Assembly: GCF_002209355.2 (NCBI RefSeq)
Contig: NZ_CP106855.1
Location: 1,116,001-1,180,000, forward strand
Source: Bdellovibrio sp. SKB1291214
GTDB taxonomy: Bacteria; Bdellovibrionota; Bdellovibrionia; Bdellovibrionales; Bdellovibrionaceae
Length of the DNA: 64,000 nucleotides
Direction of reading: 5' to 3'
The position numbers and the translations under genes are program-made. Positions within the stretch are counted from its first letter, which is position 1. Every line of letters begins with the position of its first letter. The notes beneath the pieces were generated by a model that worked only from the letters and a program-made list of their open reading frames with translations, was not told the origin of the DNA and did no database searches. Shown one piece after another: positions 36,285 to 43,055 of the stretch.

Positions 36285-36312
36285 AAGGCGCGAGATGTTC
36301 GCGCCTTTTTTA
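36285..36312. terminator. Bidirectional rho-independent terminator
   Basis: AAGGCGCGA, five bases, TCGCGCCTT and a T-run. It closes ddl on the plus strand and the collagen-like lipoprotein gene on the minus strand. Confidence 0.88.
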
Positions 36313-37143
36313 TTCAAATTTACAATCTGGTACTGCATCCCCTAATTTTACACAAATAGTTTGAGTTTCCCCCGCAGGTCCTCGCGGTCCGCGATCACCG
36401 ATGGGTCCTGCTTCCTGACAGGAAGCCTGGGGCTCACCACCGTCACCGCCAGGACCGCCCTCTCCACCTTCACCACCTAAGATGGATCTTTGCAAATCCA
36501 ATCCCTGTGCATCCACGATCTCAATAAATACTTTTCCCGAATTTCCTCCAGGAAGACCGGGATAACCAGGAAATCCCTTTTCTCCCTTCACGCACTGATA
36601 AGAAGGATAATCTCCTCCTAAACCCAGCTCTTTATATTGCCCCCGCATGCCTTCGGTCGGAGGTGCTCCCTTGGGTCCTTCTTTACCTTTAGCACCTCGC
36701 CAATGAATGCCTAGTCTGCCGCGAGCCTTCGAGACGTTCAGTTTAAAATTCCCACCCCCACTGCCTGAAATATTCAATAGGGTTGATTCCGTAGGAAAGG
36801 TCGAGATTATTCCTCCCAAGGCATCCAGTTCGTTCACGTTCATTTGAAGATTGGCGCCCATGGTATAAATAGCACCGTTCTCTTTGATTAGAAGGTGGTC
36901 AAAATTCAACTGATAGATGGTCTGATCTGCAATTGCTTTGGGATCGGGACTAAAAGCGCCCGGAAAATCTCTACGAGGCACCAACTCTCCACGAACTAAA
37001 ATGTAGGGCTCATCAATCACCACCGATGAAAGAGATTTAATTTTTATCGGTGTGTTCTCTTCATTTTTATCTCGAATTTCAACGCACGCCGACAGCATCA
37101 GAAAGGTGATGGGTAGTAGATATAACAAAATAATTTGCTTCAT
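36310..37143 (-). CDS. Lipoprotein with collagen-like Gly-X-Y segments
   Basis: A 277-residue lipoprotein: signal MKQIILLYLLPITFLMLSAC with the lipid on Cys20. The first half of the mature chain is beta-rich and unfamiliar. From about 148 there are short collagen-like stretches: GAKGKEGPKGAPP, GEKGFPGYPGLPGG, GGEGGEGGPGGDGG and GPIGDRGPRGPAGE. They are broken by cysteine-bearing inserts (YQC, ASC, TIC, DC). Bacterial collagen-like segments can trimerise and present an adhesive end. The runs are short and interrupted, so a full triple helix is uncertain. TTGGAGGAATT lies ahead of the ATG. Confidence 0.8.
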   Translation of the reverse strand: MKQIILLYLLPITFLMLSACVEIRDKNEENTPIKIKSLSSVVIDEPYILVRGELVPRRDFPGAFSPDPKAIADQTIYQLNFDHLLIKENGAIYTMGANLQMNVNELDALGGIISTFPTESTLLNISGSGGGNFKLNVSKARGRLGIHWRGAKGKEGPKGAPPTEGMRGQYKELGLGGDYPSYQCVKGEKGFPGYPGLPGGNSGKVFIEIVDAQGLDLQRSILGGEGGEGGPGGDGGEPQASCQEAGPIGDRGPRGPAGETQTICVKLGDAVPDCKFE

Positions 37144-39010: not shown

Positions 39011-40564
39011 CTAGTATAGATTTTGATTTCGATACTGCATGAGATATCCCGCTAAGGCATCAGCTTTAAGGACCTCATCCGCCACACCCAGTTCAATGGC
39101 TTTTTGCGGACCGTAAGGGAATTGAGCTTCATCCGGATTCTGCACAACACTGGCGCCACCTAGTTTTTGTACTTCGGTCAAACCGTTTACCCCGTCTGTG
39201 CCAAATCCTCCCAGTAAAACTGCAAATACCCCTTTTCCAAACGAATTAGCAGCTGATTGAAAGAGGACGTTGCTGGAGGGAATTTGGGATGCCACAGGCG
39301 CCCCCTTTTCCAGTCTAAGAACAGGTCCCTGAGGACCCGTGACGATTTTTCCATGGAATTCTGAAGGAATGAAGTACACGTGCCCCATTCTCAGGAAATC
39401 CCCGTCCTTACCCACAACTGGAGTGACCTTGGACTTGCCATTAAGCTTGGAAATATATGCTGTAACAAAGTTTGCGACCGTACTGCAAGACACAACCACG
39501 GGTGGTGTATCCGCTGCTAATGTCGATACAAATCTTTCTAATGAATCGGCGCTGCCGGCATTGCCGCCGACAACGACGACTTTCAGTTCTGCCGCACGAC
39601 GAACTGTTGAAGTCGGCGTAGACACGCGCGCTTCGGTAGCTGGTGCGTCTTTAATTTGTTTAATCACATTCACAGATGCAGCAGCACGAACTTTTGTAAC
39701 TAATGTTTCTGCCAACTCTTTCAATACCTGAGGATCAAATTGCGAAGGCTTGTGAACGAATTCAACGGCCCCTAAATCCAAAGATTTCAAAGCAGCTTCT
39801 CCGGTATTTGCCAGCGAAGAAACCATCACCACCGGGATTGGGTGATGCTTCATGATTTTTTCAAGGAACATTACACCTGACATCTTCGGCATCTCGATAT
39901 CCAAAGTCATCACATCAGGTTTTTTATTTACGATCAAATCGCGGGCTTGGTAAGCATCCGCAGCCGCGCCAACCACTTCCAAACCACTTTTATTAAAGAT
40001 ATTTGAAAACAAAGTACGAACTGTTGCAGAGTCATCCACAACAAGGACTTTCACAGCTTTCGCAACAGCTAAACGTTTAAATCCAGAAACGTCGACGGGT
40101 GCCTCTGCAGAGCCTTCCTTCGTTGTATTGTGAAGGATGGTTCCGGTGCCCGTGTTGAACTTAATGGTGCGGGCAGATTCACCACCCACATTTTTATCAA
40201 CCACAGGGATGCCCATTTCAAAAAGCATCTTTTCAGCAAGTTCAATGTTACGTTTACCAATTGCATCCCCTAACGAAGACACACTGATAACGTTACCCCC
40301 ACCATAAACCTTTGCTTGCAGCTGCGAGCGATTGGCACCCAGCCTTAAACAATCATCAACCAACATTTGTATCGCGTGATTTCCATAACGAGAGTTTTGT
40401 CTTTCGTTAGGTTGAGCATCAGGTAACAGATAGTGATTTAAACCACCAATCTTAGTCGTGGGATCATAGATCGCCACGGCCACGCAGGACCCCAGAAGAG
40501 TTGAAATAACAGTCTCTTCTTTGAACGCCGCGTACTTACCCGGAAATAGATAATGTGAATTCAT
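39011..40564 (-). CDS. CheD-receiver-CheB fusion with degenerate methylesterase site
   Basis: A 517-residue fusion. Residues 1-155 are CheD, the receptor glutamine deamidase: T22, C27 and H44 (TLLGSCVAVAIYD, GLNHYLLP) are the catalytic set. Residues 170-290 are a receiver domain with D222 in LDIEMPKMSG and the switch lysine in VHKPS. Residues about 325-515 are the CheB methylesterase fold, but the serine motif GASTGG reads GGNAGS (N335) and the QHMP histidine position reads SCST (C360). Only the acid residue D457 (GFGTDG) is kept. So the deamidase part looks active and the esterase part does not. Last gene of the cheA-cheW-like operon, overlapped by ATGA. Confidence 0.88.
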   Translation of the reverse strand: MNSHYLFPGKYAAFKEETVISTLLGSCVAVAIYDPTTKIGGLNHYLLPDAQPNERQNSRYGNHAIQMLVDDCLRLGANRSQLQAKVYGGGNVISVSSLGDAIGKRNIELAEKMLFEMGIPVVDKNVGGESARTIKFNTGTGTILHNTTKEGSAEAPVDVSGFKRLAVAKAVKVLVVDDSATVRTLFSNIFNKSGLEVVGAAADAYQARDLIVNKKPDVMTLDIEMPKMSGVMFLEKIMKHHPIPVVMVSSLANTGEAALKSLDLGAVEFVHKPSQFDPQVLKELAETLVTKVRAAASVNVIKQIKDAPATEARVSTPTSTVRRAAELKVVVVGGNAGSADSLERFVSTLAADTPPVVVSCSTVANFVTAYISKLNGKSKVTPVVGKDGDFLRMGHVYFIPSEFHGKIVTGPQGPVLRLEKGAPVASQIPSSNVLFQSAANSFGKGVFAVLLGGFGTDGVNGLTEVQKLGGASVVQNPDEAQFPYGPQKAIELGVADEVLKADALAGYLMQYRNQNLY

Positions 40565-41328
40565 GCCGCCACCAGTTTTTCAATGTCTAACACCATCACA
40601 CTGTGCTCGTCTTTAACGAAGAACTGCTTAATAAAAGGCACTGAAAGCATTGTGGGATGATCACTTAAGTTTTGCATATCTTTGTCTTTAAGACTTAAAA
40701 GTTCATCAGTCTCTGTAACTTGTAATGAAAAGCGCGTCCCCTCATGTTCGCAAATGATATAATAATATTTTTGCGTTTGAGACGTCATAAATCCGTACGA
40801 TTTTAAGTCAACCACCGGAATTGCCTCGCCTCTGAATGGGATAACTCCTGCCAGACCTGGCCTTAAATCAGGTAACGGAAATAAGGGAAGCACTCCGCTA
40901 ATTTCGATCACATTTTGTACCGGCACCACAAATTCTTGAGCACCCGTTTTGCAATGAAGAAACAGAGCTTCTTTAGTGCTTTGTGCGACCAGTGGAAACT
41001 GCAATCCAAGCTCTACGCTGTCTTTGCCGTCGACCAGTAAAGCTGAAAGATACTTTTGTAACAGGCTTAAGGCCTTTATCATCTGTTCTGCGGAATCTAA
41101 GGAATCAATCTTGGCGTTGAAATCAGTTAACCAAGATTCCAGGGAGTTAAACTCATTTGATTTCGCATCAACTACCCACGACTCTGCCTTTTCGCGGATT
41201 TCGACCGTGATTTTATTCAGCGTGCTTTCATCAATTAGATCGATAAAGGATTCAACCTCTTTAATAGTTGCATCCAAGTAGTACTTTTTCAGTTCCCCTG
41301 TAAAATCGTCGCCAAAGAAGTCACTCAT
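40561..41328 (-). CDS. CheW-like coupling protein with N-terminal helical extension
   Basis: A 255-residue protein. The C-terminal half (about 115-255) is a CheW domain: EALFLHCKTGAQEFVVPV, NVIEISGVLPLFPLPD, and GVIPFRGEAIPVVDLKSYG, the highly conserved CheW core. The first 110 residues are helical and not part of normal CheW. CheW links receptors to CheA. The gene overlaps cheA and the CheD-CheB gene by four bases each (ATGA), so the three proteins are made in fixed ratio and probably act in one array. Confidence 0.85.
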   Translation of the reverse strand: MSDFFGDDFTGELKKYYLDATIKEVESFIDLIDESTLNKITVEIREKAESWVVDAKSNEFNSLESWLTDFNAKIDSLDSAEQMIKALSLLQKYLSALLVDGKDSVELGLQFPLVAQSTKEALFLHCKTGAQEFVVPVQNVIEISGVLPLFPLPDLRPGLAGVIPFRGEAIPVVDLKSYGFMTSQTQKYYYIICEHEGTRFSLQVTETDELLSLKDKDMQNLSDHPTMLSVPFIKQFFVKDEHSVMVLDIEKLVAA

Positions 41329-43055
41329 GCTGCAACCTCCACAGAGACCGCGTGGCTTAACATCGCCATGATTTGCTCTGGATCAATGATATAAGTTACT
41401 TTTTCGTCGGCTAGAATCGAGAACCCTTTAAAGCCTTTTTGCTCGCGGATAATTCCACCAAAGTGTTTCACGACAAGGTCCGTCTGCGCTTCAACACGAT
41501 CGACTAATAAAGCCAGAACCGAGTTTTTAATTCTAATAAAAATTGCCGTGTGCTTTGCAATATCCGCCTCGCTGACAATCAAATGACCTTCGCGAATTTC
41601 CTGATATGTCAGCAGAGGTACAGTCAAATTATGGAACTGGCAATAGCGGGAATGTTCAACATAGGTCAGTTGCAGACTTTCACATGAAGTAATGTGAGCA
41701 ACTGATGTCAACGGCACGGCTACCTGAAAATCGTTCCAGCTTGCAACCATGGCTGTTTCCACTAAGATATGAGACACCGCAGGGTAGACCAATGTAAACG
41801 TCGTCCCCATATTTGGCTCAGTCGAAATCGAGATGTGTCCGCCGTACTTTTCAACCAACGTGGATACAACATCCATACCTACACCACGGCCAGAGACGGT
41901 CGTGATTTTATCTTTAGTTGAAAAGCCCGCTTCAAAAATACATTTATAAATTTCTTCGTCGGAAATAGAGTCAACTTGATCCGCCTGAATCAAATCATTG
42001 GATAAAGCTCTTTGCAGAATTCTTTCGCGATCAAGCCCCTTACCATCGTCTTTCATCACGACATGCACGGCACCATTTCTGTCACTCATCTCGATCGTTA
42101 GCTGTCCAATCGATGGCTTGCCAGCGACAGCGCGCTCGAACTGATCTTCGATACCGTGGTCTATCGAGTTACGCACCAAATGCACAAGTGATTCTGAAAT
42201 ATCTTTGGCCAAGGATTTATCAATTAGGAAATCAAGCCCCAGCATTTCCAGCTGTACGGTTTTATTAAGCTCTGTTGCCGTCTGCCGAACCAATACTGGG
42301 ATGCTTTGGAAAGCATCTTCTGCTTTTTCTTTACGAATCACCTGCAGCTGAGACTGGAACTGATCAGTAATCTTATTCAAATTTTGAGAAAAATCAGACT
42401 GGCGGCGTTCAAATAACTCAGGCTGTGACCTGAAGTTCACGGTTTGGTTCATCATTGAAAAGAAGTTTTTTAAAACTAAAAGCTCCCCGCTTAGACGAAG
42501 CATTTCATTAAGCTGCTTGGTCGACATCCACACACCGTCTTCATCAGCTGAAGTTGCGGCAGTCTTGGGAATTGCTTTCTTAATCTTTTTTGGCGCCACG
42601 CCCGAGAACTGAAAACCGTTATAGCGTGTGATTGTTTCAATCACCTCGCTGAGTTCTTCGGGATACATATCCCGCTTTTCGCGCAGGGCTTCGGCCAACT
42701 GCTTCATCAAACGCGAACTTAATAAGAATAAATCGATGCACTCTTTAGTGACCGTTTGTGATTCTCGTTTGATCCGATTTAACAGTGCTTCGAACTCATG
42801 AGATAGTGACGCCAGCAACTGACCACCTGGCACTGAGCCTACGCTGCCTTTAATCGTATGAACTTTACGGAACAAAACGTTAATGTGTTCGATGTCATTG
42901 GGTGAATCTTCAAGACGCATGATCAACGAATCGAGACCATCCAAAATTTCTTTGGACTCCTCAAAAAAGACTCGAGCAACTTCTTCGATTTGCTCAAAAT
43001 CTATTAGGCCAGATAAATCCGGCATTTCATATGCGTCGTTTTGATCGTCACTCAT
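41325..43055 (-). CDS. cheA: Chemotaxis histidine kinase CheA
   Basis: A 576-residue kinase. The HPt domain carries H66 in RKVHTIKGSVG. A short linker replaces the P2 domain that normally binds CheY and CheB. The dimerisation and ATP domains follow (VHLVRNSIDHGIE, MKDDGKGLD, IFEAGFSTK, SGRGVGMDVV), and a CheW-like regulatory domain ends the protein (about 430-570). The overall order is standard. Lack of a clear P2 suggests transfer to a regulator with low affinity or one fused elsewhere, such as the receiver in the CheD-CheB protein. No convincing sigma-28 promoter was found, though a TCCGATAA -10-like element lies upstream. Confidence 0.93.
   Translation of the reverse strand: MSDDQNDAYEMPDLSGLIDFEQIEEVARVFFEESKEILDGLDSLIMRLEDSPNDIEHINVLFRKVHTIKGSVGSVPGGQLLASLSHEFEALLNRIKRESQTVTKECIDLFLLSSRLMKQLAEALREKRDMYPEELSEVIETITRYNGFQFSGVAPKKIKKAIPKTAATSADEDGVWMSTKQLNEMLRLSGELLVLKNFFSMMNQTVNFRSQPELFERRQSDFSQNLNKITDQFQSQLQVIRKEKAEDAFQSIPVLVRQTATELNKTVQLEMLGLDFLIDKSLAKDISESLVHLVRNSIDHGIEDQFERAVAGKPSIGQLTIEMSDRNGAVHVVMKDDGKGLDRERILQRALSNDLIQADQVDSISDEEIYKCIFEAGFSTKDKITTVSGRGVGMDVVSTLVEKYGGHISISTEPNMGTTFTLVYPAVSHILVETAMVASWNDFQVAVPLTSVAHITSCESLQLTYVEHSRYCQFHNLTVPLLTYQEIREGHLIVSEADIAKHTAIFIRIKNSVLALLVDRVEAQTDLVVKHFGGIIREQKGFKGFSILADEKVTYIIDPEQIMAMLSHAVSVEVAA

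Follow-up and report, generated by a model that had tools for sequence, protein, structure and literature searches.

The window analysed here, a 64,000 nt stretch of the Bdellovibrio sp. SKB1291214 genome, carries a chemotaxis gene in which CheD, a receiver (REC) and a CheB methylesterase fold are joined, and in which, judging from alignments, the catalytic residues of the methylesterase have almost certainly been lost. The altered CheB domain, here designated psiCheB, has been retained across Bdellovibrio and other families of the phylum. In the reading we propose, for which we regard the case as evenly balanced, this pseudo-methylesterase would dock CheD and place it under phospho-control by the kinase CheA1, leaving the esterase work to a separate CheB. 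Chemotaxis adaptation is usually described in terms of active CheR, CheB and CheD enzymes, and a dead CheB that is conserved and attached to the only CheD of the genome suggests that the CheB switch has another use besides catalysis and that receptor deamidation is here controlled directly by a kinase.

Table 1. Coordinates in the window of the fusion gene, its domains and key codons, and of the two adjoining chemotaxis genes.
Feature	Position	Strand	Basis or remarks
CheD-REC-psiCheB fusion gene	39011-40564	-	517 aa ORF; Pfam domains; start overlaps cheW stop
CheD receptor deamidase domain, aa 1-150	40115-40564	-	T22, C27 and H44 intact
Receiver (REC), aa 169-295	39680-40060	-	D177, D178, D222 (phospho-site), S250, K272
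psiCheB, CheB methylesterase fold, aa 327-512, catalytic Ser and His gone	39029-39586	-	
Asn335 (codon AAT), at the position of catalytic Ser164	39560-39562	-	Invariant in dead clade
Ser361, at the position of catalytic His190	39482-39484	-	Alignment
Asp457, sole triad residue kept (Asp286)	39194-39196	-	Alignment
cheW, 255 aa, with N-terminal extension of ~120 aa	40561-41328	-	Pfam CheW 123-254; same operon
cheA1, 576 aa, Hpt, HATPase and CheW-like domains	41325-43055	-	Pfam; HTIKGS, N and G boxes present

The three domains of the fusion were recognised by Pfam as CheD (residues 46-144, 90 bits), Response_reg (173-276, 86 bits) and CheB_methylest (330-507, 109 bits against a cut-off of 24, spanning model positions 1-173 of 174). 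In phmmer comparisons, residues 8-146 matched the CheD chain 2f9z_C (E 1e-24) and residues 170-502 matched almost the entire length of CheB 1a2o (E 9e-52); the CheB structures 6ymz and 1a2o align with residues 166-502 (E about 1e-52). At the sequence level, Pfam and the alignment with 1a2o both assign psiCheB to the CheB_methylest fold, and it is preceded by a receiver with a phosphorylatable Asp. With CheD, REC and CheB in one chain inside a che operon, the protein belongs to the fusion family of Bdellovibrionota. It is 69-79% identical to the copies in Bdellovibrio records (74% to that of B. bacteriovorus strain kdesi). AlphaFold2 models reached a pLDDT of 45 for the full protein (from 7 sequences) and 37 for psiCheB alone, the alignment probably being too shallow.

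The initial annotation had proposed that the esterase site is lost and that CheD's Cys27 and His44 are intact, and both points were confirmed by alignment. When the fusion was aligned with 1a2o and with intact CheBs, including the second CheB of the same genome, the triad Ser164-His190-Asp286 corresponded to N335-S361-D457, so the Ser-His-Asp triad of a CheB enzyme is absent. Asn occupies the Ser column in all 27 members of the dead clade and the His column is Ser, Ala or Thr, with Cys360 present in 22 of the 27. No alternative Ser/His pair was detected at the triad positions, and no replacement catalytic Ser or His is conserved in the psiCheB alignment columns of the dead clade. His404 was considered as a substitute and rejected, as this column varies between His, Gln and Asn and live enzymes have His or Gln there; the other His columns of psiCheB were rejected as unconserved. 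The same triad loss is found in every full-length Bdellovibrio copy retrieved (20 species genomes, that of the window included), and is thus not the product of chance or sequencing error. Receptor methyl-ester hydrolysis by the fusion is predicted to be absent. Compared with CheB (1a2o), the fusion shares the receiver with its phospho-site, the CheB_methylest fold and Asp286, but has Asn and Ser for the catalytic Ser and His, CheD in front, and invariants of its own around the old active site.

The CheD part is a complete CheD fold with its catalytic Cys, His and Thr, T22 corresponding to T. maritima Thr21 in the alignment with 2f9z_C. C27 and H44 are kept in 26/26 dead rows with letters at these columns (T22 was read in the window protein), and the same holds for the receiver residues D177, D178, D222, S250 and K272 (26/26). 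While sharing Cys27, His44 and the Thr with T. maritima CheD, the domain differs from it in being covalently joined to a receiver and psiCheB. The Met-Phe of 2f9z_C, which we take to be equivalent to the M101/F102 of B. subtilis that were mutated in a CheC-binding study, is absent at that place in all fusions examined. CheC itself, the partner in the CheC/CheD adaptation pair, was not found in the genome, where only CheX and one other protein, presumably a flagellar switch protein, carry a short CheC motif. Candidate QQ deamidation sites are predicted in the first methylation-helix region of two of the 22 receptors, and single-Q sites in others.

The occurrence of the fusion was sampled by CheD searches through the family, class and phylum, followed by reading of the loci, and by a search for relatives of the protein. 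The latter gave 20 full-length dead copies in Bdellovibrio, the window's included. Dead fusions are also present in the other genera represented by G035 (67% identity) and G032 (52%), and in G060, G097, G098, G092, G140 and G273, the last from a family of the same phylum that is more distant from Bdellovibrio. A further 26 fusions in Bdellovibrionota are live, their triad being intact (GASTGG ... QHIPP). Within this phylum the CheD-REC-CheB fusion is thus a common architecture, of which the dead CheB is one branch, and the earlier view that the fusion itself is unusual, which would have made it the novelty, was abandoned. The 27 dead CheB domains, which come from Bdellovibrio, its sister genera and other families, group in a single clade with support of 100/100, recovered with the same support in a CheB-domain tree of wider sampling (12 dead rows); these trees support the dead clade itself, its inner order being uncertain (long branches) and its position relative to the live fusions not fixed. 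Live fusions such as those of G051 and L086 (cheA-cheW-mcp-cheR-cheDB) share the domain order, a similar length and a chemosensory operon with the dead ones, but differ in their intact GASTGG/QHIPP motifs and in having a different CheA. In three other genomes, CheD is followed in the same chain by an intact CheB without an intervening receiver (L124, L128 and L146; ~350-370 aa).

Descriptions of CheD-CheB fusions, live or dead, were not found in the open literature, most subscription papers lying outside the search, and keyword searches of the open literature for a dead CheB gave nothing. The accessible parts of MiST 4.0, a Geobacter che survey, an F7 evolution paper and a Campylobacterota study make no mention of a CheD-CheB fusion.

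Substitution rates indicate that the dead CheB fold is kept under purifying selection, as the initial annotation had supposed. Within Bdellovibrio, the median dN/dS was 0.054 for psiCheB, 0.069 for CheD, 0.031 for the receiver (the most conserved domain of the fusion) and 0.20-0.22 for the linkers, compared with 0.024 for the catalytic domain of the canonical CheB, all of these being rough figures owing to saturation of synonymous sites in most pairs. Four residues of psiCheB, N335, Q427, P477 and P483, are each present in 27/27 members of the dead clade and not in live enzymes, in which the P477 column is Glu throughout and the P483 column is aromatic. A recent pseudogene is rejected by the age of the domain, its low dN/dS and these clade-specific invariants. 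An older relic on its way out, carried as a decaying passenger, might be suspected from the repeated loss of psiCheB and from its rate of evolution, roughly double that of the canonical catalytic domain, but the low ratio, the 20 species with intact copies, the lack of frameshifts, an age of order level or greater, and losses that accompany CheA1 instead of falling at random make it highly improbable. That the old active-site positions have been fixed as new invariants, and have not decayed, also fits a new chemistry or ligand, with a pocket of Asn335, Asp457, Pro477 and Pro483 binding or converting something else; such a pocket would lack a conserved nucleophile/base pair, given the variation at the His column and Cys360, and we consider this improbable.

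The start of the fusion gene overlaps the stop codon of cheW by 4 bases (ATGA), and cheW overlaps cheA1 by 4 bases. Because of these overlaps the three genes most likely form one operon. CheA1 is the likely phospho-donor of the fusion receiver. Pfam did not recognise a P2 domain in the window CheA1. Relatives of CheA1 in G032, G060 and G140 carry a receiver at the N-terminus (confirmed by Pfam in G032 alone), which the Bdellovibrio copy is without. The counterpart of the cheW extension in G032 has a Pfam Hpt domain at that place, and the ~120 aa extension in Bdellovibrio may be a decayed Hpt domain. Elsewhere in the genome, a cheA-cheR-cheB cluster lies at 3.39 Mb, its cheA at C1:3393 kb and its intact CheB at C1:3395.7-3396.7 kb. 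Also present are a third CheA-like kinase, one CheX, the 22 receptor matches and a CheB-CheR hybrid of 1608 aa (L091:3817-8643; genome C1:466.8-471.6 kb), which contributes a third CheB domain. The initial annotation had named a second complete CheB, together with a silent fusion gene, as grounds for doubting its reading; the former exists, but the cheW overlap and the low dN/dS give no hint of silence.

Natural deletions link psiCheB to CheA1. In two Bdellovibrio genomes (G018 and G013), a CheD of 154-155 aa lies in the same place with the same neighbours, and cheA1, cheW and REC-psiCheB are missing. In the CheD tree, several branches of which are weakly supported, these two and the standalone CheDs of G028, G084, G085, G086 and G033 nest inside the dead-fusion clade; therefore the C-terminal part, REC-psiCheB, was probably lost several times while CheD stayed. 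Genome-wide searches with CheA1 gave scores above 300 bits only in G014 (its fusion is spread over two contigs), G035, G092, G032, G060 and G140, all with a REC-bearing dead fusion. The best match was at most 190 bits in G003, G013, G018, G028, G033, G084, G085 and G086, and at most 219 bits among 27 genomes with a live fusion or no CheD. Exceptions are G097 (64% complete) and G273, in which a REC-bearing dead fusion is accompanied by a best CheA of 192 bits. The grouping behind this comparison was made post hoc, on genomes that are related. By these comparisons, REC-psiCheB appears to have been lost together with CheA1/CheW in relatives. In natural genomes CheA1, receiver and psiCheB are gained and lost in step, which makes the idea directly testable. 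The suggestion that the receiver would place CheD under phospho-control, made in the initial annotation, fits this correlated loss; the phosphorylation, the docking and the effect on CheD are inferences.

One genome, G098 (L145), provides a natural double loss, its dead CheD-psiCheB fusion being without a receiver and its operon without cheA1. Since psiCheB is kept there without a receiver, it would seem to be of some value without phospho-control. This bears on the possibility that receiver and psiCheB act as a phosphate sink, psiCheB forming a scaffold and phosphoryl groups being drained from CheA1 in the manner of spare receivers. The receiver is intact, is the most conserved part of the protein and is lost together with CheA1, all as a sink would have it, but a sink requires the receiver alone, leaves the clade-specific invariants of psiCheB unexplained and does not account for the receiver-less protein of G098, so that we find this explanation rather improbable.

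Six loci (G032, G060, G097, G098, G092 and G273) have an intact CheB gene whose start overlaps the dead fusion, and no live-fusion locus has a second CheB nearby. Fisher p values for this pairing were 1e-4 when counted by locus and 5e-4 when counted by lineage (one locus, too short, was left out), which serve as a guide only, the grouping having been chosen after the data were seen and the counts from related genomes not being independent. In G140, the dead fusion has no adjacent CheB. All components are found together in G060, in the order mcp-cheW-REC-cheA-cheR-cheA1-cheWext-cheD:REC:psiCheB-cheB, where mcp, REC and cheR were named from gene position and the beginning of the sequence and not by Pfam. 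In CheB-domain trees the separate Bdellovibrio CheB falls into a single clade with the tandem CheBs, and the pairing therefore looks ancestral, the Bdellovibrio CheB now residing with the other cluster. Both the translational coupling, confined to dead fusions, and the common clade could also reflect an action of psiCheB on the intact CheB, whether by competing for receptor sites or CheA phosphate or by pairing with it, so that demethylation is tuned and CheD is merely carried along. In Bdellovibrio, however, the two genes are far apart (1.16 versus 3.40 Mb), G013 and G018 have lost REC-psiCheB yet keep an intact CheB, and we know of no case of CheB acting as a heteromer. On balance this alternative appears unlikely.

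In CheB, the esterase site is covered by the unphosphorylated receiver and is opened by phosphorylation. In B. subtilis, CheD acts mostly by receptor binding, the timing of which is set by CheC together with CheY-P (PMC3513319). The likeliest reading, docking of CheD by psiCheB under CheA1, combines these two behaviours. CheA1 would phosphorylate the fusion receiver, which when unphosphorylated would pack on psiCheB as in CheB; phosphorylation would release psiCheB to bind receptors, or their methylation helices, without hydrolysis. Such docking would deliver CheD, and so set when it reaches its receptor sites, with methyl-ester hydrolysis carried out by the separate CheB that in related genomes is encoded directly after the fusion. 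As proposed, the system has in common with B. subtilis that a phosphorylated receiver controls the access of CheD to receptors, but the control would lie in one chain, the fused receiver substituting for the separate CheC and CheY-P (PMC3513319). CheD could also work without this control, which would explain its survival when CheA1 is lost, and docking by psiCheB may be useful even without the switch, as the G098 protein suggests. Extended to the phylum, and more tentatively, long-standing pseudo-methylesterases could represent a phospho-operated docking module for CheD, with CheA1 commanding deamidation and another CheA/CheB pair demethylation.

Two minor observations concern the receptors and a gene near the operon. 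A tail of the form K/H-V/I-G-x-x-D/S-G-F is common to the ends of five of the 22 receptors (L009, L011, L013, L014 and L016), and could serve as a peptide that tethers adaptation enzymes. At positions 36310-37143 (- strand) of the window lies a gene for a 277 aa protein that begins like a lipoprotein and contains collagen-like Gly-x-x stretches.
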